The position numbers were made by a program, and so were the translations under genes. 64,000 bases of DNA from Alphaproteobacteria bacterium (lineage in GTDB: Bacteria; Pseudomonadota; Alphaproteobacteria; ATCC43930; CGMCC-115725), in assembly GCA_021325525.1 (NCBI GenBank), contig JAJPHB010000081.1, positions 1 to 64,000 on the forward strand, given 5' to 3'. Under the pieces are notes generated by a model, which saw only the letters and a list, made by a program, of their open reading frames with translations, searched no databases and was not told the DNA's origin. Positions 2,007 through 44,280 of the stretch are shown piece after piece (position 1 is the stretch's first letter; every line of letters starts with the position of its first letter).

Positions 2007-2140
2007 AGCGCGGGACAGCGCATGCGGCGGGCGGCCGCGGCCAGCCGCCCTTCGCATCGGCCGGGTTTCACGGGATTTTCATTTCTCCCGCATTTCATTT
2101 ACTGCTGCCGCCTGGCATCTCCGCGGCAGCGAGGAACGAC

Positions 2141-2323
2141 GTGGATCTGGGACTCTTCAACAAGCACACCGCTGCCGCCTTCGGGCTTCTCATCGGCATC
2201 ATCATCGGCGCGCTCATTTTCGATGTCGTCGGCGCCGATCTGCGCGGCAATATGTCGACCAGCCAGGCGATTTCCGTCGCCCGTTGCGCCGCGAGCCGGA
2301 TCGGGGTGGCGCCAGGCGGCTGA
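2141..2323 (+). CDS. Small predicted membrane protein (60 aa)
   Basis: A 61-codon frame with a GTG start preceded by an AGCGAGGA site. It encodes a hydrophilic N-terminus (VDLGLFNKHT) and one convincing hydrophobic helix (AAFGLLIGIIIGALIF) followed by a short polar tail containing a cysteine. No family is recognised. It lies between the broken CBS gene and the 3' end of the FCD regulator, in a gap that would otherwise be empty. The single-helix design makes a small inner-membrane protein plausible, but the support is composition and a ribosome-binding site only. Confidence 0.35.
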   Translation: MDLGLFNKHTAAAFGLLIGIIIGALIFDVVGADLRGNMSTSQAISVARCAASRIGVAPGG

Positions 2324-2382
2324 CTCGACGGAGAGTGCGGGCGGGCCCGATTTCCGGGACGGGCGCCGCCTCAACGGAACTT

Positions 2383-3156
2383 TCAGCGCTTCCCCCGCAT
2401 GAGCTGCCGATATCGCTGGCTGCTGCGCATGAGATGCTCGCGCATGGCGGCGCGCGCGGCGGCGGGGTCGCCCGCGGCAATGGCCGCATGGATGGCGCGG
2501 TGCTCGCGCTGGAAGGTGTCGAGATAGATGCGGCGGTCGTCGATGCGGCCGCGATCGAGCGGAACGCTCTGCCGCGGAATGATGAAGCGGCCGAGATATT
2601 CGAGAAAGCGGGTGAATTGCTGATTGCCGGTCGCCGCGGCGATGGCGCGGTGAAAGGCGAAATCCTCCTCGATCGCCGCCTCGCCGCGGGCGATCGCCGC
2701 ATCCATCGCGGCGAGCGCCCGGCCGATGATGCGGATTTGCCGCGCGGTGCCGCGCTCGGCGGCGAGGCCCGCCGTCTCGACCTCGACGGCGAGGCGCAGC
2801 TCCATGACGTCGATGATGTCGGCGATCGACCGTCGATCGTCGAGATCGATGCGGAAGGGGCGGCGCCGCGCATCGCTGGCGACGAAGGCGCCGAGGCCCT
2901 GGCGCGTCTCGACCAGCCCCTCGGCGCGGAGCGCCGCGACCGCCTCGCGCACCACGGTTCGGCTGACTCCGAACCCGGCCATCATCTCCTGCTCGGTCGG
3001 CAGGCGCGCGCCCTTGGCAAGGCGTCCGCCGGTGATCTCGCTGGCGAGCCGCTCGATCACCTCGGCGGTGCGGTGCCGTGGCGGCGCGAGCCGGCGCAGG
3101 ATGCCGGCGGGTGCGGCTCTTCTTGACAAGCGTGCGCCCGGGTGATGTATGGTCAT
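2383..3156 (-). CDS. FadR/FCD-type GntR transcriptional regulator
   Basis: A regulator of up to 257 residues. The winged helix-turn-helix (about residues 30-95) has the GntR pattern RLPTEQEMMAGFGVSRTVVREAVAALRAEGLVETRQGLGAFV, shown here only as a family signature. The C-terminal FCD domain supplies the metal-site pattern DFAFH, then EHRAIH and MREH. FCD proteins usually sense carboxylic acids. It is divergent from the TRAP transporter, so it most likely controls that transporter. The annotated start (ATG at 3154-3156) lies inside the probable operator/promoter of the TRAP genes; a TTG nine codons downstream is an alternative start, since the first 25 residues do not look conserved. Confidence 0.88.
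   Translation of the reverse strand: MTIHHPGARLSRRAAPAGILRRLAPPRHRTAEVIERLASEITGGRLAKGARLPTEQEMMAGFGVSRTVVREAVAALRAEGLVETRQGLGAFVASDARRRPFRIDLDDRRSIADIIDVMELRLAVEVETAGLAAERGTARQIRIIGRALAAMDAAIARGEAAIEEDFAFHRAIAAATGNQQFTRFLEYLGRFIIPRQSVPLDRGRIDDRRIYLDTFQREHRAIHAAIAAGDPAAARAAMREHLMRSSQRYRQLMRGKR
3123..3151 (+). promoter_or_regulatory. Promoter of the TRAP operon (-35 TTGACA, -10 TGTATG)
   Basis: TTGACA at 3123-3128 is separated by 17 bases from TGTATG at 3146-3151, a good sigma-70 layout about 90 bases before dctP. The -10 element lies inside the palindrome at 3146-3162. Confidence 0.5.
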
Positions 3157-3162
3157 CGTACA
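3146..3162. promoter_or_regulatory. Putative FCD-regulator operator
   Basis: TGTATGGTCATCGTACA has outer arms TGTAyG/CrTACA and overlaps both the -10 box of the TRAP promoter and the first codons of the divergent regulator gene. Binding there would block both genes, which fits negative autoregulation plus repression of dctPQM. Confidence 0.5.
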
Positions 3163-3242
3163 AGTTCGTAGGCGATGCCGGAGCGCAAGTCAACTCCGGG
3201 CCGGTCGCGGGCGAGCCGACAGCAGTGCGGGGAGGAGACGAG

Positions 3243-4247
3243 ATGAGGCGGCGTGAATTCTTGCGCGGCGGAGCCGCGGCGGCGGCATTCGGTGCGGCCG
3301 GCCTCGGCCTCGGGCCGAGCGCCTTCGCCGACACCAAGATGGTGTTCAAGGCCTCGGACGTGCATCCCGAAGGCTATCCGACGGTGGTTGCCGTCGAGAA
3401 TATGGGCAAGAAGCTCGAACAGGCGACGGGCGGCCGCCTCAGCATACAGATGTTCGCCTCGATGCAGCTGGGCGGCGAGAAGGAAGCGATCGAGCAGGCG
3501 CAGGTCGGCGCCATCCAGCTCGCGCGCGTCAGCGTCGGTCCGCTGGGGCCGGTGATCGACGACCTCAACGTCTTCAACCTGCCCTTCCTCTTCCGCAGCA
3601 CCGCGCATATGGAGAAGGTGATCGACGGGCCGATCGGGCAGGAGCTGCTCGACAAGGTCACCAACAACCCCAAGGCGGGGCTCGTCGGGTTGTGCTGGAT
3701 GGATGCCGGCGCCCGCAACATGTACGACACCAAGAAGCCGATCAAGAGCATCGCCGATCTCAAAGGCCTCAAGGTCCGCGTCATGGGCAATCCCATGTTC
3801 GTCGACATGATGAACGATCTCGGCGGCAACGGCATCGCCGTGGGCTACGACCAGGTCTTCAGCGCGCTGCAGACCGGCGTCATCGACGGGGCGGAGAACA
3901 ACCCGCCGAGCTTTTATTTCGACAACCACTATCAGGTCGCCAAATATTACACCCTGACCGAGCACCTCATCGTTCCGGAGATGCTGGTCTTCTCGAAGAA
4001 GACTTGGACGACGCTCTCCAAGGCGGACCAGGATCTGCTCGTCAAGTTCTCGCGCGAGGCTCAGCTCGAGGAGCGCGCCCTCTGGAACAAGAAGGAGGAG
4101 GACGCCATGGCCAAGATGAAGGCCGCCGGCATCCAGATCATCCCGATCGCCGACAAGAAGCCCTTCCAGGATGCGGTGAAGCCGGTCTGGGACAAATACG
4201 GCACCAAATACGCCGACATCATCAAGCGCATCGAGGCGGTAGAGTAG
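3243..4247 (+). CDS. dctP: TRAP transporter solute-binding protein (DctP family)
   Basis: A 334-residue periplasmic receptor. The N-terminus MRRREFLRGGAAAAAFG is a twin-arginine signal with a cleavage site after SAFA (about residue 29). The mature part follows the DctP pattern, with VFKASDVHPEGYPTV near the start, a central conserved arginine region (KGLKVRVMGNPMFVDMM) and the ALQTGVIDGAENNPPS loop that closes over a carboxylate ligand. An AGGAG site precedes the ATG. It is the first gene of a dctP-dctQ-dctM operon divergent from an FCD regulator. The ligand is probably a small organic acid; this cannot be specified from sequence. Confidence 0.93.
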   Translation: MRRREFLRGGAAAAAFGAAGLGLGPSAFADTKMVFKASDVHPEGYPTVVAVENMGKKLEQATGGRLSIQMFASMQLGGEKEAIEQAQVGAIQLARVSVGPLGPVIDDLNVFNLPFLFRSTAHMEKVIDGPIGQELLDKVTNNPKAGLVGLCWMDAGARNMYDTKKPIKSIADLKGLKVRVMGNPMFVDMMNDLGGNGIAVGYDQVFSALQTGVIDGAENNPPSFYFDNHYQVAKYYTLTEHLIVPEMLVFSKKTWTTLSKADQDLLVKFSREAQLEERALWNKKEEDAMAKMKAAGIQIIPIADKKPFQDAVKPVWDKYGTKYADIIKRIEAVE

Positions 4248-4267
4248 GGCTGCGCGCGGCGCGGTGC

Positions 4268-4377
4268 ATCCTTCGAGACGCGCTCTGCGAGCGCTCCTCA
4301 GGATGAGGCCGATGGTGAGTGCCAATCACCGATCTTCCTCATCCTGAGGAGCCGCCGGAGGCGGCGTCGCGAAGGAC
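4268..4377. repeat. Imperfect inverted repeat (two 41-bp arms) inside the TRAP operon
   Basis: Arms at 4268-4308 and 4337-4377 are reverse complements with few mismatches. The left arm ends CTCCTCAGGATGAGG and the right begins CCTCATCCTGAGGAG. The element lies between dctP and dctQ. It resembles the CCTCATCCTGAGGAG...GCGAAGGA palindromes common in alphaproteobacterial genomes. In RNA it would form a long hairpin that could protect the dctP message. Confidence 0.85.
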
Positions 4378-4422
4378 GCACAGCGCCAGCGCAGCGCCCA
4401 TTTACTTTCGACGGCGAGCTCG

Positions 4423-4962
4423 ATGCCAGGCATGCCGCATCTCTTCCGCAGGGCCATGGACGCGCTCTACTGGGCCTGCGCCGTGCTGGCCGGCGCCTCG
4501 CTCGTCCTCGTCTCGGCCGTCATCCCCTACAGCGTCTATACGCGCTATGTCCTCAACCACGCCGCCTCCTGGCCCGAGCCGGCGGCGGTGCTTCTCACCA
4601 TCGTCCTCACCTTCTTCGGCGCGCCCGTCTGTTATCGCGACAGCATCCACATGCGCGTCATGTTCTTCATCGGCTTCATGCCGCCGCTGGCGCGGCGCCT
4701 CTGCGATTTCCTCGCCGAGGGGCTGGTGGCGCTCGTCGCCCTCTTCATGGCGAATTGGGGCTACGGCCTCTGCGCCGCCACCTGGTTTTCCTCGATCGAC
4801 GAGTTTCCCTGGCTCTCGGTCGGCGTGACCTACCTGCCGATTCCGCTGGGCGGCATCGTGACGCTGCTCTTCGTCATCGAGCGCCTGACGATCGGCGCTC
4901 CGCCGCAGCGCCTGCCCGCGCATGAGGCAGCCGCGGAAGAGAGCGCGCCATGGACATCCTGA
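4423..4962 (+). CDS. dctQ: TRAP transporter small permease (DctQ family)
   Basis: A 179-residue membrane protein with four hydrophobic helices (about residues 14-38, 53-68, 88-112 and 135-155). The conserved small-permease motif region YSVYTRYVLNHAASWPEPAAVLL is recognisable. It pairs with the large permease DctM to form the membrane part of a sodium-driven tripartite carboxylate transporter. Its 3' end overlaps the start of dctM by 13 bases, indicating translational coupling. The ribosome-binding site is weak, and an ATG three codons further on is possible. Confidence 0.9.
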   Translation: MPGMPHLFRRAMDALYWACAVLAGASLVLVSAVIPYSVYTRYVLNHAASWPEPAAVLLTIVLTFFGAPVCYRDSIHMRVMFFIGFMPPLARRLCDFLAEGLVALVALFMANWGYGLCAATWFSSIDEFPWLSVGVTYLPIPLGGIVTLLFVIERLTIGAPPQRLPAHEAAAEESAPWTS

Positions 4963-6239
4963 TCGTCGTCGCCGTCCTCCTCGGCAGCTTCGTCATCGGC
5001 ATTCCGATCGCTTATGGCCTCGGCCTCGCCGCGCTCTTCGCCGCCTATCGGACGGGCATCCCCTATGAAGCGGTGATGCTGCAGATCTCGCACGGCGTCG
5101 GCAAGGTGGCGATGCTGACCATCCCGTTCTTCGTTCTCGCCGGCGCCATCATGGCCGAAGGCGGCATGGCGCGGCGGCTCGTCGCCTTCGCCGATGTGCT
5201 GGTCGGGGTCATTCGCGTGCGCGGCGGCCTCTCGGTCGTCAATATCTTGGCGACCACCTTCCTCTCCGGCATCTCCGGCTCCTCGGTCGCCGACACCTCG
5301 GCGATCGGCTCGGTCATGATCCCGCAGATGGAGAAGGTCGGCTATTCGCGGGTCTTCGCCACCAACGTCACGATCAGCGCCTCCGTCCAGGCGCTGCTCG
5401 TGCCGCCGAGCCACAACGCCGTCATCTATTCGCTGGCGACGGGCGGCGCCATCTCGGTCATCAGCCTCTTCATGGCCGGCGTCGTGCCGGGGCTGCTGCT
5501 CGGCTTCTCGCTCGTCATTCTCGTGCTGGTGATGGGCTACCGCCAGGATCATCCGCGCGGCCAGGCGGTGCCGTGGCGCGATGCGCTACGCATCACCTTC
5601 GAGGCGATGTGGGGCCTCGTCACCCTCGTCATCATCCTGGGCGGCATCCTGGGTGGCGTCTTCACGGCGATCGAGGCGGGCGCCGTCGCCTGCGTCTATG
5701 CCTTCTTCGTCACCATGTTCGTCTATCGCGACTACAAATGGCGCGACCTGCCGCTCCTCGTCCATCGCACGATGAAGACGGTGGCGATGGTGATGACGCT
5801 CATCGCCTTCGCCGCGGCCGTCGGCTACATGATGGCGCTGATGCAGGTGCCGGCGAAGATCACGGCCTTCTTCCTGACGCTCTCGCACGACAAGCACGTC
5901 ATCCTCTTCCTCATCAACATCCTGCTGCTCGTCCTCGGCTGCCTCATCGACATGGCGCCGAACATCCTCATTTGCACGCCGATCCTGCTGCCCGTGATGG
6001 CCAATTTCGGCGTCGATCCGGTGCATTTCGGCATGATCATGATGCTCAATCTCGGGATCGGCCTCTGCCACCCGCCGGTCGGGTCGATCATTTTCGTCGG
6101 CTGCGCCGTCGGCAAGGTCACGATGGAAGAGGTCGTGCGCAAGATGCTGCCCTTCTACGGCGTCATGTTCCTCGTCCTGATGCTGGTCACCTACATTCCC
6201 GACATCTCGCTCTGGCTGCCGCATCTCCTCCATCTTTGA
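4950..6239 (+). CDS. dctM: TRAP transporter large permease (DctM family)
   Basis: A 429-residue polytopic membrane protein with about twelve hydrophobic segments. Signatures include FFVLAGAIMAEGGMARRLV, the SGISGSSVADTSAIGSVMIPQM loop, and LGIGLCHPPVGSIIFV near the end, all characteristic of DctM-like subunits. Length matches the family (about 425-430). It completes a dctPQM operon and overlaps dctQ. With the DctP receptor it should import an organic acid using the sodium gradient. Confidence 0.95.
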   Translation: MDILIVVAVLLGSFVIGIPIAYGLGLAALFAAYRTGIPYEAVMLQISHGVGKVAMLTIPFFVLAGAIMAEGGMARRLVAFADVLVGVIRVRGGLSVVNILATTFLSGISGSSVADTSAIGSVMIPQMEKVGYSRVFATNVTISASVQALLVPPSHNAVIYSLATGGAISVISLFMAGVVPGLLLGFSLVILVLVMGYRQDHPRGQAVPWRDALRITFEAMWGLVTLVIILGGILGGVFTAIEAGAVACVYAFFVTMFVYRDYKWRDLPLLVHRTMKTVAMVMTLIAFAAAVGYMMALMQVPAKITAFFLTLSHDKHVILFLINILLLVLGCLIDMAPNILICTPILLPVMANFGVDPVHFGMIMMLNLGIGLCHPPVGSIIFVGCAVGKVTMEEVVRKMLPFYGVMFLVLMLVTYIPDISLWLPHLLHL

Positions 6240-25725: not shown

Positions 25726-27036
25726 CTACCGCAGCAGGTTGCCGCGGACGGTGACGAATTCCTCGAAGGCGGCGGCAAGGGCGTCCGTTTCCGTTTTGCC
25801 GATCGGCAGCGACAGGTTCAGCATGCCGCGGCGGGCGACATAGAGGCCGCGCTCCAGAAGGTCGAAGAAGAAGAGGCCGGCGAGGTCGGGGTCGACATGC
25901 TTCACATCAGCCTTGCGGCGGATGGGATGGCGCGTGAAGTGAATGTTCATCATCGACCCGCGGCCGGTGAATTGCACATTCGCTTCATGCTTTTGCGCGA
26001 TGTCGTTGAGCCGTGATCTCAACGTCTCGCCCATCTCGTTCAGGGCCTTCGCCGCAGCCGGCGTATAGACCTCGCTGAGGCCGGCGAGGCCGGCCGCCAT
26101 CGTCATGACATTGTTGTTGAAGGTGCCGGCATGGGGCAGGAAGTTCGGCTTGCGCGGGTCGAAGAGCGACATGATCGCCTCCTTGCCGCCGAAGGCGCCG
26201 AAGCTCATGCCGCCGCCGATATATTTGCCGAGCGTCGTCATATCGGGGATGACGCCGGTCGCCTCTTGCAGCCCGCCCGGCGCGAGGCGCGAAGTCATCA
26301 CCTCGTCGAAAATGAGGACGATGCCGTGCCGGCTCGCGAGCTCGCGCAGCCCGCGCAGGAAGTCGAGCTCGGCTGGGATGCAGCCGGCGCCGCCCTGCAT
26401 CGGCTCGAGGATGATGGCGGCGAGGCGGTCCTTCTCCGCCTCGACGGTCCGGCGCGTCGCCGCGAGGTCGTTGTAGGGCGCCGTCACGATCGGGAAGGGG
26501 ACGTTGATGGCGGCGATGCCGGCGCCGAAATTGAGGACGCCGCCGTGATAGGCGCCCTCGAAGACGAGGATCGCCTCGCGCTTCGTTGCCGCGCGCGCCG
26601 CGGTCAGCGCCATGAGATTGGCCTCGGTTCCGGAATTGGTGAAGCGCACGAGCTCGATCGACGGGAAGCGGGCGCAGACGAGCGATGCGAGCTTGCCTTC
26701 GAGCGCGGTGTGGCCGCCGAAATTGAGCCCGTCATCGAGCACCCGGCGCAGCCGCTCCTGGATGACGGGATGCGAGTGGCCGTAGAGCCCCGCCGTGTAT
26801 TCGCCGAGGAAGTCGATAAATTCGTTGCCATCGACATCCCAGAGCCGGCAGCCCGCGCCGCGGGCGAACATGACCGGGAAGGGGTCGAAGAAGAGGACGC
26901 TCCGCGTGTTGCCGCCAGGCAGCGACCGGCATGCCGCCTCGTGGAGGCTCGCGCTCTCTCTGTGGCGAGCGGCGTAGCGCTCCTTGGCTTCGGCAAGGGC
27001 GGCGGCAGCGCTGGTGTTGACGCGTGTGTCGGGCAT
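25726..27036 (-). CDS. Class III PLP aminotransferase (glutamate-1-semialdehyde aminomutase-like)
   Basis: A 436-residue PLP enzyme. NSGTEANLMALTAAR (phosphate-binding), VFEGAYHGGVLNFG, LIFDEVMTSR (PLP-ring Asp) and TLGKYIGGGMSFGAFGG (Schiff-base Lys) follow the HemL/class-III order. The substrate differs from that of housekeeping HemL, since the active-site surroundings and N-terminus (ESASLHEAACRSLPGGNTRSVLFFDPFP) match the aminotransferase branch often tied to amino-acid or amine catabolism. The start is the ATG at 27034-27036 with a GAGGAG site; an upstream extension runs into a repeat. Confidence 0.9.
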   Translation of the reverse strand: MPDTRVNTSAAAALAEAKERYAARHRESASLHEAACRSLPGGNTRSVLFFDPFPVMFARGAGCRLWDVDGNEFIDFLGEYTAGLYGHSHPVIQERLRRVLDDGLNFGGHTALEGKLASLVCARFPSIELVRFTNSGTEANLMALTAARAATKREAILVFEGAYHGGVLNFGAGIAAINVPFPIVTAPYNDLAATRRTVEAEKDRLAAIILEPMQGGAGCIPAELDFLRGLRELASRHGIVLIFDEVMTSRLAPGGLQEATGVIPDMTTLGKYIGGGMSFGAFGGKEAIMSLFDPRKPNFLPHAGTFNNNVMTMAAGLAGLSEVYTPAAAKALNEMGETLRSRLNDIAQKHEANVQFTGRGSMMNIHFTRHPIRRKADVKHVDPDLAGLFFFDLLERGLYVARRGMLNLSLPIGKTETDALAAAFEEFVTVRGNLLR

Positions 27037-27150
27037 GCGGGCTCTCCTCGCGGCACGAGACGCCAGCGATGATGGCAAGAGGACGGAGGCGCCGCAAGGA
27101 TGCGCGCACGGCCGAGCCGCCGTGACGCTCTCCCCTTCGGACGCCTTCAA

Positions 27151-28243: not shown

Positions 28244-29140
28244 TCAGCCGCTCCCTTCTTGGCGAACCGCCGCGGTCTCCGCGGCGATCCAATCGCGGAA
28301 CGCCTTGATCTTCGGCCGCTCGGCCGTCGCCTCGGGGGCGACGAGCCAATAGGATTTGCCGTTGGGGACGGTGAGAGCGAAGGGCTGGAACAGCCGGCCC
28401 ACGGCGAGGTCGTCGGCGAAAAGCGAAGGCTGCGCCATGACGATGCCGAGCCCGTCGACCGCGGCCTCGGCCGCGACCTTCGTCGAATCGAAAATGGGGC
28501 CGCGGCGCAGCGCGAAGCCGTCGAGCCCGGCGGCGGCGAGCCAGAGCGGCCACTCCGTCTCCTCCGTCGTGCGCAGCAGCGGCACGCTGCGCAGGTCCGC
28601 GGGCTCGCGGAGCAGGTCCTTGAAGCGGCGGCCGCAGAGCGGCGTCAGGAAGTCATCGAACATCTTCTGCGCGCGCAGTCCCGCCCAGCCGCCTTCGCCA
28701 TAGCGGATCGCGACATCGATATCCTCATGCGCGAAATCGACGAGGCGCTGCGTCGTCAGGATGCGGACGTCGATCTCGGGATGCGCCGCCTGGAAGCGCG
28801 GCAGGCGCGGCACCAGCCAGGTCATGGCGATCGTCGTCATGGTGCCGACGGTGAGGGTTCCGCCGCGCGGGCGCGCGGCAATGCGCTCGACGGCCTGCCC
28901 CATCCGCGCGAAGGCGTCGCGCAGCTCGGGCAGAAGCGCCTGCCCCTCATCCGTCAAGAGCAGCCGGCGCGGAAGGCGGCGGAAGAGGGGAACGCCGAGA
29001 AAGGCTTCGAGGCCCTTGATCTGATGACTCACCGCCGCCTGCGTCACATGCAGCTCCTCCGCGGCGCGGGTGAAGCTGAGATGGCGCGCGGCGGCCTCGA
29101 AGGCGCGCAGAGCGTTCAGGGGCGGGAGGGCGCGAGTCAT
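28244..29140 (-). CDS. LysR family regulator, GcvA-like
   Basis: A 298-residue activator/repressor. The helix-turn-helix (LNALRAFEAAARHLSFTRAAEELHVTQAAVSHQIKGLE, family signature) is the GcvA/AmpR type. The effector domain opens LTVGTMTTIAMTWLVPRLPRF and contains the DVAIRYGEGGW motif. A TTAG-N5-CTAA palindrome nine bases before its start codon fits autoregulation. It is divergent from the DMT exporter/ureohydrolase genes, which are its most likely targets. Confidence 0.92.
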   Translation of the reverse strand: MTRALPPLNALRAFEAAARHLSFTRAAEELHVTQAAVSHQIKGLEAFLGVPLFRRLPRRLLLTDEGQALLPELRDAFARMGQAVERIAARPRGGTLTVGTMTTIAMTWLVPRLPRFQAAHPEIDVRILTTQRLVDFAHEDIDVAIRYGEGGWAGLRAQKMFDDFLTPLCGRRFKDLLREPADLRSVPLLRTTEETEWPLWLAAAGLDGFALRRGPIFDSTKVAAEAAVDGLGIVMAQPSLFADDLAVGRLFQPFALTVPNGKSYWLVAPEATAERPKIKAFRDWIAAETAAVRQEGSG

Positions 29141-29298: not shown

Positions 29299-30318
29299 AT
29301 GAGCGATTGGGCAGCTGCTCTCCGCCGCATTCGCGGAGAGCTTCTCTTTCGCCTGCTCGGGATGGGCCGCGCCGGGCTGGCGCCGGCCGGTCCGCTGCCG
29401 CGCGCGGCGACGATGCCGGCGCTCACGGCCGAACGCTCGGAGCAGCCGCTCGCCGCCATCGGCATGGTGCTGTTGGCGATGTTTCTCTTCAGCGGGATGG
29501 ACGGGCTCTCGAAGCTCGTGACCGCCGATTATCATCCGGCCGAAATCGCGGCGCTGCGCTTTCTCTTTACGATCCCGGCGCTGCTGCCCTTTGCGCTCCG
29601 CGCCGAGTTTCCGCCCTGGCGGACGCCGGTGCCGCTGCTGCAAATCGGCCGGGGCGTCGCCATGGTGGCGTCCTCGATCCTTTTCATCTTCGGCCTGGCG
29701 CAGCTGCCGATCGCCGATGCGACGGCGATCGGCTTCGTGACGCCGCTGCTCGTCACCGCTCTCTCGATCCCGCTCCTCGGCGAGACGGTGGGCGTGCGGC
29801 GCTGGGCCGCGGTGGTGATCGGCTTCATCGGCGTCCTCATCGTCATGCGCCCAGGAACCGGCGCCTTCAACCCCGCCGCCCTCTACCCGCTGCTGTCGGC
29901 GGCGAGCTGGGCCCTTGGCATGATCCTGACGCGGCGGATGCGCAGCATCGACCGGGTGCTGACGACGATGCTCTATTCGGCGGTGGTCGGCTTCGCGGTG
30001 AGCGCGCTCGCCCTGCCTTTCGTCTGGCGCATGCCGAGCCCCATGGCCTGGGGGCTTTTCGCGCTCATGGGCGCGCTCAACGCCAGCGGCCAATCGCTGC
30101 TCGCCGCCGCCTTCAACCGCGCCGGCGCGTCGCTCCTCGCTCCCTTCTCCTACAGCCAGATGGTGTGGTCGAGCTTGATCGGCTATTTCGTCTTCGCGAC
30201 AATCCCGGACGGCGCGACTTGGACCGGCGCCGCCATCGTGATCGCGACCGGGCTCTACACGCTGCATCGCGAGCGCGTCGTGGCGCAACAACGCCGGAGC
30301 CGGGGCGCGCGCCTCTGA
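29299..30318 (+). CDS. DMT (EamA) family transporter
   Basis: A protein of up to 339 residues with ten hydrophobic helices in two EamA repeats (GMVLLAMFLFSGMDGLSKLV... and LYPLLSAASWALGMILTRRM...). EamA proteins export amino acids, amines or metabolites. The first 40 residues are not typical of the family, and the real start may be the ATG of MPALTAERSEQP further down, as no clear ribosome-binding site precedes 29299. The ureohydrolase-like gene follows after 14 bases, so the two are probably co-transcribed and divergent from a GcvA-like regulator. Confidence 0.88.
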   Translation: MSDWAAALRRIRGELLFRLLGMGRAGLAPAGPLPRAATMPALTAERSEQPLAAIGMVLLAMFLFSGMDGLSKLVTADYHPAEIAALRFLFTIPALLPFALRAEFPPWRTPVPLLQIGRGVAMVASSILFIFGLAQLPIADATAIGFVTPLLVTALSIPLLGETVGVRRWAAVVIGFIGVLIVMRPGTGAFNPAALYPLLSAASWALGMILTRRMRSIDRVLTTMLYSAVVGFAVSALALPFVWRMPSPMAWGLFALMGALNASGQSLLAAAFNRAGASLLAPFSYSQMVWSSLIGYFVFATIPDGATWTGAAIVIATGLYTLHRERVVAQQRRSRGARL

Positions 30319-30332
30319 AGGAAGTCCGCCCC

Positions 30333-31277
30333 ATGCCGCCGAGCCGCCACGCCGCCGATGCCACGGCCTTCGCCGCGCCGCCCTCCTTCATGGGCGTGCC
30401 CTTCTCGCGCGACCTCGCGAAGAGCAAGGCCGCCATTCTCGGCATCCCCTTCGATTGCGGGACCCACCCGGTTCGGATCGGCTCGCGCCTCGGACCGCAG
30501 GCCATCCGCGAGCAATCGGCGCTGGTTCGCCCCTACGAGCCGCCGCTGCAGGATTACAACCCGATCGAGCGGCTCGGCCTCGTCGATTGCGGCAATGCGC
30601 GGGTCGTGCCGGGCAATGTCGATGTCTCCTATCCCGCGATCGAGGAGGCGGTCTCGCATATCGTCTTCGCCGGCGCCGTGCCGGTGACGATGGGCGGCGA
30701 CGGAGCCGTGACCTTGCCGCAGCTCCGCGCCCTGCACCGCAAGCACGACGACCTCGTCCTCCTCCATATCGACGCCCACACCGATACCTATCCGGGCGAG
30801 GGGCGCGATCGCTACAACACGGCGACGACATTCACGCGCGCCTCCGAGGAGGGGCTGCTCGACACGCGGTCCTCCTTCCATATCGGCGCCCGCGGCCCCG
30901 TCTACATGCCGGAGGTGTTCGAGCATACGCGCCAGCACGGCTATCGCCTCATTCCAGGCGTCGACCTTGCCGCGCGCGGTATTCCGGCGGTGCTGGAGGA
31001 GGTGCGGCAGACGCTCGCAGGGCGGCCCGTCTATCTCTGCTTCGATATGGATTTCTTCGACCCCTCCTGCGCGCCCGGCGTCTGCACGCCCGCCTGGGGC
31101 GGCGCCAGCGCGCGCGAGGGGCTGGCGCTGCTGCAGGGCCTCGCCGGGCTCCGCATCGTCGCCTGCGACGTCAACACGGTGAGCCCGCCGCATGATGTCG
31201 GCGGCATGACCGCCTTTCTTGCGGCGACGGTGATGCTGGAGTGCCTCTTCCTGATCTGCCAGGCGCCGGCGGGCTGA
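30333..31277 (+). CDS. Ureohydrolase-fold protein (agmatinase-like) lacking canonical residues
   Basis: A 314-residue protein of the arginase/agmatinase superfamily. Three metal-binding elements can be compared. MGGDGAVTLPQ (121-124) has glycine 124 where the family has the ligand histidine of GGDHS. HIDAHTDTY (D147, H149, D151) and CFDMDFFDP (D238, D240) are intact. In the guanidinium-binding segment VNTVSPPHD, threonine 282 replaces the usual glutamate of VVEVSPPYD. One metal ligand and the substrate-binding Glu are thus missing. It may use a different metal arrangement or substrate, or be a non-catalytic partner. It follows the DMT exporter gene by 14 bases. Confidence 0.85.
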   Translation: MPPSRHAADATAFAAPPSFMGVPFSRDLAKSKAAILGIPFDCGTHPVRIGSRLGPQAIREQSALVRPYEPPLQDYNPIERLGLVDCGNARVVPGNVDVSYPAIEEAVSHIVFAGAVPVTMGGDGAVTLPQLRALHRKHDDLVLLHIDAHTDTYPGEGRDRYNTATTFTRASEEGLLDTRSSFHIGARGPVYMPEVFEHTRQHGYRLIPGVDLAARGIPAVLEEVRQTLAGRPVYLCFDMDFFDPSCAPGVCTPAWGGASAREGLALLQGLAGLRIVACDVNTVSPPHDVGGMTAFLAATVMLECLFLICQAPAG

Positions 31278-42846: not shown

Positions 42847-44280
42847 CTATCGCGCCAGCTTCGCCAGATCGGGGAGAGGGCGCGCGGTCTGCGGGTCGCG
42901 CGCGAGATGCTGCTCCAGCGCGTGCGCCGCGTCCAGCAGGAATTTGTCGCCGCGCGCCGGGCCGCAAAGTTGCAGCGCGAAGGGCGTTCCGGTCGGCTCC
43001 AAGCCGCAAGGCAGTGACAGGGAAGGATGGCCGGTGAGGCTGAGCGCATAGGTCGGCGCCAGCCAGGAGAAGTAGGTCGGCAGCTTTCGCCCGTCGATCT
43101 CCGCCATGTAGCGCTGCTCCAAGGGGAAGGGCGGGACCGGGACGGTCGGCGTGACGAGGAGGTCGAATTCGCGGAAGAACTCCTGGAAGTCGCGATAGAT
43201 CCTGGTCGCCTGCGCCTGGCCGCGCGCCGCGTCGGCGAGCGACATCGAAAGCCCCTGCTCGACATTGGCGATGATGTTGGGGCCGAGCTTGTCGCGGTGT
43301 TTCTCGTAGCGCTCCTTATGCGCCGCGAGGAAGCTCATCGCCCGCAGGATCGCGAAGGCTTCGTCGGCGTCCGCCATTTCGGGATGGCGCCATTCGCATG
43401 ATTTGAACACCGGACGGATGCGCTCGATGCGCTCGCGGAAGGTGGCGCGGATGCGCGGGTCGAGCGGGATGAAGCCGAGATCGTCCGAGACGGCGACGCG
43501 CAAGCTGCCGAGATCGACGGGCGCCACCGCCCGGAAGGCCGCAGGATCGACGGGCGCCGCCAGCGGATCGCGGCTGTCGGCCGAGACCTGCGCCTGGAGC
43601 AGAAGCAGGGTGTCGGCGACGTTCCGGCCCATCGGCCCTTGCGTCGTGATCGGCGTCCAGCCGATGAGCCGGCGCTCGCTCGCGACCAGGCCGACGGAGG
43701 GCCGAAAGCCGACAATGCCGCAGAACGCCGCGGGAATGCGGAGCGAGCCGCCCGTATCCGAGCCCGTGCAGAGCGGCAGCATCGAGGTCGCAAGCGCCAC
43801 CGCCGAACCGCCCGAGGAGCCGCCGCAGATGCGCTTCGGGTCGAAGGGGTTGCCGGTCGGGCCGTAGACGGGATTATTGGTGTTGGCGCCGGCGCCGAAT
43901 TCCGGCGTGTTGGTCTTGCCGACAATGATGGCGCCCGCCCGCCGCACCGCGGCCACCATCCGCTCGTCCTTGGCCGGCACGTAGTCGGCATAGAGGGGCG
44001 AGCCCCAGGTCGTGCGCAGCCCTTCCGTCTCGTTCAGATCCTTGATGCCGATCGGCAGTCCGTGCAACGGGCCGAGCGCGTCGCCGGCGAGCGCCGCCTT
44101 CTCCGCCGCCTTCGCCTCGGCCTTGGCGCGCTCGATGCAGGTCGCGGTAATCGCGTTGAGGGCCGGGTTCACGCGCTCGATCCGCTCGAGGCAGGATTGC
44201 AGCAGCTCGACCGGCGAAATCTCCTTGGCGCCGATCATGCGGCGGAGCTCGACGGCGGCGATATCGCAGAGTTCTGTCAT
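42847..44280 (-). CDS. Amidase (amidase signature family)
   Basis: A 477-residue amidohydrolase with the Ser-cisSer-Lys triad: Lys80 in GLPIGIKDLNETEG, Ser155 in ICGGSSGGSAVALA and Ser179 in GSDTGGSLRIPAAF. The spacing of 75 and 24 residues equals that of known family members. Substrates range from simple amides to glutamyl-tRNA; the neighbouring formyltransferase-like gene hints at an amide or formyl compound rather than GatA function. No signal peptide. The MFS transporter gene lies immediately upstream in the same direction. Confidence 0.92.
   Translation of the reverse strand: MTELCDIAAVELRRMIGAKEISPVELLQSCLERIERVNPALNAITATCIERAKAEAKAAEKAALAGDALGPLHGLPIGIKDLNETEGLRTTWGSPLYADYVPAKDERMVAAVRRAGAIIVGKTNTPEFGAGANTNNPVYGPTGNPFDPKRICGGSSGGSAVALATSMLPLCTGSDTGGSLRIPAAFCGIVGFRPSVGLVASERRLIGWTPITTQGPMGRNVADTLLLLQAQVSADSRDPLAAPVDPAAFRAVAPVDLGSLRVAVSDDLGFIPLDPRIRATFRERIERIRPVFKSCEWRHPEMADADEAFAILRAMSFLAAHKERYEKHRDKLGPNIIANVEQGLSMSLADAARGQAQATRIYRDFQEFFREFDLLVTPTVPVPPFPLEQRYMAEIDGRKLPTYFSWLAPTYALSLTGHPSLSLPCGLEPTGTPFALQLCGPARGDKFLLDAAHALEQHLARDPQTARPLPDLAKLAR

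Follow-up and report, generated by a model that had tools for sequence, protein, structure and literature searches.

Alignments and a phylogenetic tree of the ureohydrolase (agmatinase) family showed that the gene at 30333..31277 (+) of the window (the whole stretch of 64,000 nucleotides analysed here) belongs to a conserved clade, which is set apart by one branch and in which the active site was rebuilt by coupled changes and kept under selection. The catalysis, the number of metals and the substrate class of this clade are what we infer from the protein sequences. The reading that we favour, with about an even chance, is that the gene product, as a member of a distinct clade within the family, is a working metallohydrolase that cleaves an amide or ureido bond instead of a guanidine. 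By analogy with the histone deacetylases (HDACs), it would probably hold one metal at site B.

The ureohydrolase gene and its flanking genes

The ORF of this ureohydrolase-fold gene of the GGDG/T subfamily encodes 314 residues plus a stop codon, and its translation contains no internal stop. The protein matched the Pfam Arginase family (PF00491) with 255.6 bits against a cut-off of 22 bits. Arginase was the sole Pfam family matched at E 0.001, and no deacetylase family of Pfam was matched. The cut-offs of the NCBIfam agmatinase models TIGR01230 (162 vs 174.3 bits) and NF002564 (232.2 vs 302 bits) were not reached. The nearest solved relatives by sequence were guanidinopropionase (E 7.7e-57), guanidinobutyrase (1e-56) and proclavaminate amidinohydrolase (6.6e-49).

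The first-pass annotation had placed the gene with a DMT exporter under a GcvA-like regulator, and both neighbours proved to be real. The DMT transporter gene (29299..30318, +) was identified as EamA by Pfam, and its stop at 30318 is 14 bp upstream of the ureohydrolase ATG; from this spacing, the two genes are probably in the same operon. The LysR-type regulator gene (28244..29140, -) is transcribed divergently, and scored above the NCBIfam GcvA cut-off (363.8 vs 288 bits).

The whole genome (G000, 4.8 Mb) contains nine ureohydrolase-family genes; the window's 68 kb contig carries no other, and eight lie elsewhere. Beside one of these (L005, G000:C16, about 2714-3592) is a DMT transporter 40% identical to that of the window. 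Another contig (L153, G000:C168, +) carries two family genes, 1240-2205 and 3952-5013, about 1.7 kb apart and followed by an M20 peptidase gene. One of the pair is canonical (GGDHS, FVEVNP), and the other is very divergent (79 bits to Pfam Arginase); by eye, the latter has GQNS for GGDH and FICIPP without the Glu, and keeps DTHWD and DMD. This is a candidate for a heteromeric pair, or for parallel loss of the same residues.

Active-site residues

The motifs MGGDGAV, DAHTD, DMDFFD and VNTVSPPHD, quoted in the first-pass annotation, were all found in the window protein. The annotation had read a metal-ligand His and the guanidinium-binding Glu as replaced, and the alignments bear out both readings. 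Gly124 (codon 30702..30704, +) is aligned opposite the ligand His of GGDH in guanidinopropionase, guanidinobutyrase and proclavaminate amidinohydrolase, with no gap within the motifs. It occurs in 100/100 distinct subfamily rows. Asn281-Thr282 (31173..31178, +) replace the Val-Glu pair of which the Glu holds the guanidinium; Thr282 stands opposite the Glu of VEV in the alignments to the solved relatives, where the motif is ungapped. Asn is found at 281 in 100/100 and Thr at 282 in 99/100 distinct rows. The remaining ligand motifs are intact, as had also been stated: DAHTD (30771..30785, +) supplies Asp147, His149 and Asp151, and the DMD of DMDFFD (31044..31052, +) supplies Asp238 and Asp240, these five ligands being invariant in 100/100 distinct rows. 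We take Asp147, His149, Asp238 and Asp240 to be the ligands of site B, an assignment carried over from arginase, in which the counterparts of Asp151 and Asp238 also serve metal A.

A third change was absent from the earlier note. The catalytic His of the HGT motif, equivalent to His163 of SpeB (numbering mapped through shared motifs), is replaced by Thr163 (codon 30819..30821, +); His occupies this position in 0/108 subfamily rows vs 41/44 canonical rows.

Two other histidines distinguish the subfamily. His45 (codon 30465..30467, +) lies in a loop that is one residue longer than in the canonical homologues. It is His in 93 of the 98 distinct rows with a letter at this position, which is a gap in 38/38 canonical rows of an alignment of 125 homologues. 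His183 (codon 30879..30881, +) is found in 97/100 distinct rows; in canonical rows, position 183 is Gln (43/44) or Tyr, and position 45 is empty. His287 is less common, with 73/100 distinct rows. Supply of the lost ligand His by a neighbouring residue was considered and rejected. In the window protein, the ten residues on either side of position 124 include no His, and comparison of 108 subfamily rows with 44 canonical rows revealed no subfamily-specific conserved position nearby except 124 itself.

Signature and distribution of the clade

None of the 108 subfamily or 44 canonical rows was mixed for positions 124 and 282. The subfamily set excludes the copies L004, L104 and L123, retains partial sequences (e.g. 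L011 and L136), and was merged to 100 distinct proteins at 99.5% identity; the canonical set includes at least one duplicate (L001 = L034). Besides the five kept ligands, Gly124 and Asn281 are invariant among the 100 distinct proteins. The one departure from Thr282 is Ala in L086 (Thr in 107/108 rows before merging). Position 163 varies in the distinct rows (T 51, P 16, V 14, A 11, N 6, S 2). Glu282 is found in 0/108 subfamily rows and 44/44 canonical rows, the canonical set being defined by His124 and Glu282. His163 is also missing from 3/44 canonical rows, so this loss, taken singly, also occurs outside the clade. Across these rows, the combination of Gly124, Asn281-Thr282 and no His163 is a fixed signature of the clade, not an oddity of one protein.

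Matches at E 1e-30 or better were found in 25 of 39 genomes of the same family (its own included), and close relatives in just two other genomes of the 39, with 54% and 65% identity, the second being partial. Contigs were also scanned with the patterns YLCFDMD and LG[IV]PFDCG, drawn from the clade. The best 80 of 217 relatives were taken, and these come from Alpha-, Beta- and Gammaproteobacteria. Three further relatives are located on plasmids of Caballeronia, Bosea and Methylobacterium. The 125 aligned homologues comprised 87 with the GGDG/T signature and 38 canonical ones, copies counted.

A profile search of 385 alphaproteobacterial genomes, with a clade model and at most five candidates scored per genome, gave a bimodal distribution: 26 matches in 24 genomes scored at least 364 bits, and the next match scored 285 bits. 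Twenty-four of the high-scoring loci were examined (second copies in G159 and G374 were left out), and all 24 have Gly124, Asn281, Thr282 and no His163; the six loci examined below the gap are all canonical. Intermediate forms may be missed, because both the patterns and the model were derived from the clade. Three annotated members carry the label 'arginase family protein' and nothing more specific. No characterised member or report of the substitution was found in open-licence PMC papers, which is weak evidence of absence. We know of no assay of any clade member.

Phylogenetic analysis and selection

The phylogeny of GGDG proteins that the first-pass annotation had proposed was reconstructed by maximum likelihood from 115 rows. 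All 76 GGDG rows fell on one side of a single branch with support 100/100. The GGDG state amounts to one change, on a branch present in 100% of 200 bootstrap trees and with a length of 1.3 changes per column. The tree was midpoint-rooted for drawing only, and some canonical rows and L146 were kept in as long branches. The canonical state would be ancestral, because of its spread.

The median dN/dS was 0.119 for the 69 of 103 pairs with dS <1.5, which share branches and are not independent. The clade is under purifying selection, and therefore its genes are not decaying. That the changes in the window protein come from a sequencing error or a decaying gene is hardly conceivable: the ORF is intact, the same signature occurs in 100 distinct proteins, and dN/dS is low, as a clade-wide figure.

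Predicted structure and metal site

An AlphaFold2 model of the window protein, built with 47 rows from a structure alignment of 46 relatives (close, partial or odd-length ones were left out), had a mean pLDDT of 92.4 and a pTM of 0.91. The best PDB matches in Foldseek were guanidinopropionase, proclavaminate amidinohydrolase and E. coli agmatinase, and the chains of metformin hydrolase ranked lower. The model confidently predicts a ureohydrolase fold. Modelling of the metal site had been suggested in the first-pass annotation; the fold comes from this model, and the metal geometry discussed below is deduced from the sequence alone.

A reference for the metal site is E. coli agmatinase. The SpeB ligands are H126, H151, D149, D153, D230 and D232, and the guanidinium is contacted by H163, E274 and T244 (available text of PMC8049259). 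His151 binds a strongly held Mn and His126 a weakly held one, and the minimum for activity is one Mn per active site (available text of PMC8125230). The same part of that paper reports that H163F leaves 3-5% of the activity with KM unchanged, and that E274A leaves 1-2%, with KM for agmatine and Ki for guanidine increased and Ki for putrescine not. Moreover, the Mn B site of arginase has been conserved in HDACs, where it binds Zn (available text of PMC5454378). Given the weak-Mn role of His126, the one-Mn minimum and the B site of HDACs, a protein without the GGDH His could still catalyse at the other site. The loss of the Glu and the catalytic His removes features needed for guanidines, and the invariance of five ligands in 100 proteins argues for a kept metal and kept catalysis.

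As regards an HDAC-like mononuclear mechanism, the site B ligands are invariant and the GGDH His is lost, yet Asp151 and Asp238 are kept. The suggestion of an altered, possibly mononuclear hydrolase is supported as a reading, by the five invariant ligands and the role of His126 as the weak-metal ligand. The protein may also be inactive, since any of the three losses costs SpeB most of its activity or one metal.

The invariance of Asp151 and Asp238 argues for some metal at site A, and there would be room for one with changed ligands. The site might then still be binuclear, with His183, His45, His287 or water in place of the lost ligand, and the enzyme would act on an amide or a different nitrogen compound. 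The clade retains all four Asp ligands, and His183, His45 and His287 are common in it and could be replacement ligands or acid-base residues. DcsB, with its Cys at this ligand position, would be a parallel. None of the candidate histidines is invariant, however, and the model gives the His45 loop low confidence (mean pLDDT 67 over residues 41-50). We consider a binuclear site rather unlikely, and keep it as an alternative.

In the proposed mechanism with a single site B metal, the GGDH His, the catalytic His and the guanidinium-binding Glu would all have been lost at the base of the clade. The metal held by Asp147, His149, Asp238 and Asp240, perhaps alone, would activate water. A pocket lacking the Glu and the His would no longer suit a guanidinium group; the substrate would more likely carry a neutral amide, formamide or ureido group, attached to a molecule that resembles an amine or an amino acid. 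Cleavage of that group might be part of a scavenging pathway. In the genome that contains the window, the probable operon also includes the DMT transporter gene.

Comparison with metformin hydrolase

The first-pass annotation had also raised the possibility of a non-catalytic partner as in metformin hydrolase. Such partners do have a precedent in that enzyme, and the clade lacks a metal ligand together with the catalytic His and the Glu that binds the substrate. In MetCaCb, five of the six ligands are changed in MetCb and three to five in its clade; no metal was seen in MetCb, and metCa and metCb form an adjacent gene pair (available text of PMC11271267). Similarly, the MefH beta subunit has other residues at 4/6 ligand positions (available text of PMC11399263). 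The present clade has lost 1/6, and the other five are unchanged in every distinct row, in contrast to the three to five changes of the MetCb clade. The gene does not adjoin one for a catalytic ureohydrolase on the window's contig, and a second ureohydrolase was found in the examined flanks of 2/83 loci (L040 and L079). This search covered ORFs of at least 100 aa at E up to 1e-5, so that very divergent ones could be missed, and the flanks of many of the 83 loci were cut by contig ends. A partner might be encoded elsewhere, because the genome has eight other family members. Overall, ligand count and gene neighbourhood disfavour the comparison, and we regard it as improbable that the protein is a pseudoenzyme with a regulatory role or an inactive partner of the kind seen in the small subunit of metformin hydrolase.

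Gene neighbourhoods and the possible substrate

Neighbouring genes were counted in 82 loci; L104, a copy of L010, was excluded, the window was included, and L121 was missed by the gene caller. Gene clusters were named from one representative scanned with Pfam and NCBIfam or from record annotation, and two labels in L091 were assigned manually; individual genes may therefore carry a wrong label. Importer genes lie in the same run (same strand, gaps <120 bp) as the subfamily gene in 33/82 loci: 22 of the polar amino acid type, five with an SBP_bac_8 binding protein, to which we assigned the label 'polyamine-type' independently of the scan, and six with LIV-type, TRAP or TctC parts. Within six genes, the 82 loci contain genes for SDR (13 loci), ThDP enzyme (12), Rieske oxygenase (10), 2-hydroxyacid dehydrogenase (9), Amidohydro_2 (7), RidA (7), gamma-glutamyltransferase (7) and M20 (7). 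The M20 cluster in these seven loci is DapE/ArgE-like, below cut-off; the representative of a second M20 cluster, in three loci, scored above a hydantoinase/carbamoylase cut-off.

Aminotransferase clusters were found within six genes in 6 and 4 of the 82 loci. The window itself has an aminotransferase-like gene (25726-27150, -) that matched glutamate-1-semialdehyde aminomutase families below cut-off, and its cluster is near the subfamily gene in 6/82 loci, the window counted.

Amidohydro_2 and 2-hydroxyacid dehydrogenase genes occur together in 7/82 loci; RidA joins them in six, and in two there is also a Rieske gene within six genes. The combination appears in three parts of the tree (L096 with L039 and L116; L089 and L114 with L115; L052). 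One shared pathway could not be derived from the neighbours, as most loci lack this combination. The neighbouring genes are too varied to indicate a single substrate. At one further locus (L124/L154), tblastn at 1e-20, in which distant transporters would be missed, detected a DMT gene immediately upstream of the subfamily member; this suggests that the DMT partner is not typical of the clade.

On the Bosea plasmid (L040, 4795-9885), the subfamily gene adjoins a flavin reductase gene, and a divergent NtaA/DmoA-type monooxygenase gene and an AtzE-family amidase gene are nearby. A stretch of the window (42925-44211, -) is 32% identical to this amidase, as a tblastn match alone.

Two loci have neighbours that would suit, as the substrate, an amine- or amino-acid-like molecule bearing an amide or ureido group, each as a single case. 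In L059, an agmatine deiminase-like gene (2056-3012, below the NCBIfam cut-off) is located directly upstream of the subfamily gene. In L050 (3858-11145), the subfamily gene shares one run with ABC importer genes, a Rieske oxygenase gene and a urea transporter gene, the last lying downstream. The binding protein encoded beside the gene in L096 resembles, with scores under the cut-offs, the lysine/arginine/ornithine and cystine binding-protein families, and this weak likeness to the former would suit a guanidino compound too.

The enzyme might still hydrolyse a guanidino compound in a rearranged pocket, for example a substituted guanidine. Guanidinopropionase and guanidinobutyrase are its best solved relatives, and Thr252, the motif equivalent of the guanidinium-contacting Thr244 described for SpeB, is kept in 99/108 subfamily rows. 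The equivalents of Glu282 and His163 are missing in 108/108 rows, however, and the corresponding SpeB mutants E274A and H163F keep little activity (available text of PMC8125230); the score against TIGR01230 also stays below its agmatinase cut-off. A guanidino substrate appears unlikely to us on these grounds.

Relationship to known enzymes

The clade shares with E. coli SpeB and with P. aeruginosa GbuA and GpuA the fold, the Pfam family, 5/6 metal ligands and Thr252. It differs in having Gly for the His of GGDH, T/P/V/A/N/S for the catalytic His and Thr (once Ala) for the Glu, and the GGDG proteins form a separate clade. The beta proteins of metformin hydrolase (MetCb, MfmB and MefH beta) likewise have a ureohydrolase fold in which the metal site is altered; whereas in MetCb and MefH beta, as far as the available texts describe them, four to five of the six ligands are replaced and no metal is bound, only one is lost here. 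The histone and polyamine deacetylases offer a functional parallel, in that their Zn site corresponds to the Mn B site of arginase, as the available text on that site has it; the window protein, in contrast, has no deacetylase Pfam match and keeps the Asp residues that in arginase serve metal A. DcsB, an N-hydroxyarginine hydrolase, also has a replaced metal A ligand, with Cys at the position of the GGDH His; in the present clade the replacement is Gly, and the Glu and the catalytic His are lost as well.

The clade is a widespread, uncharacterised branch of a well-known family of urea-releasing enzymes. It is present in 24/385 sampled alphaproteobacterial genomes, yet the features that suit agmatinase to guanidines are gone. 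Tentatively, and with somewhat less than even expectation, we propose that a one-metal hydrolase of amides or ureido compounds arose independently in this clade, by the same step as that between arginase and the HDACs, and serves an unrecognised nitrogen-scavenging route of Proteobacteria. If active, these enzymes would show how a two-metal guanidinium hydrolase can be turned into a different hydrolase by a few coupled changes. Their study could correct annotations and reveal a common route of nitrogen uptake.
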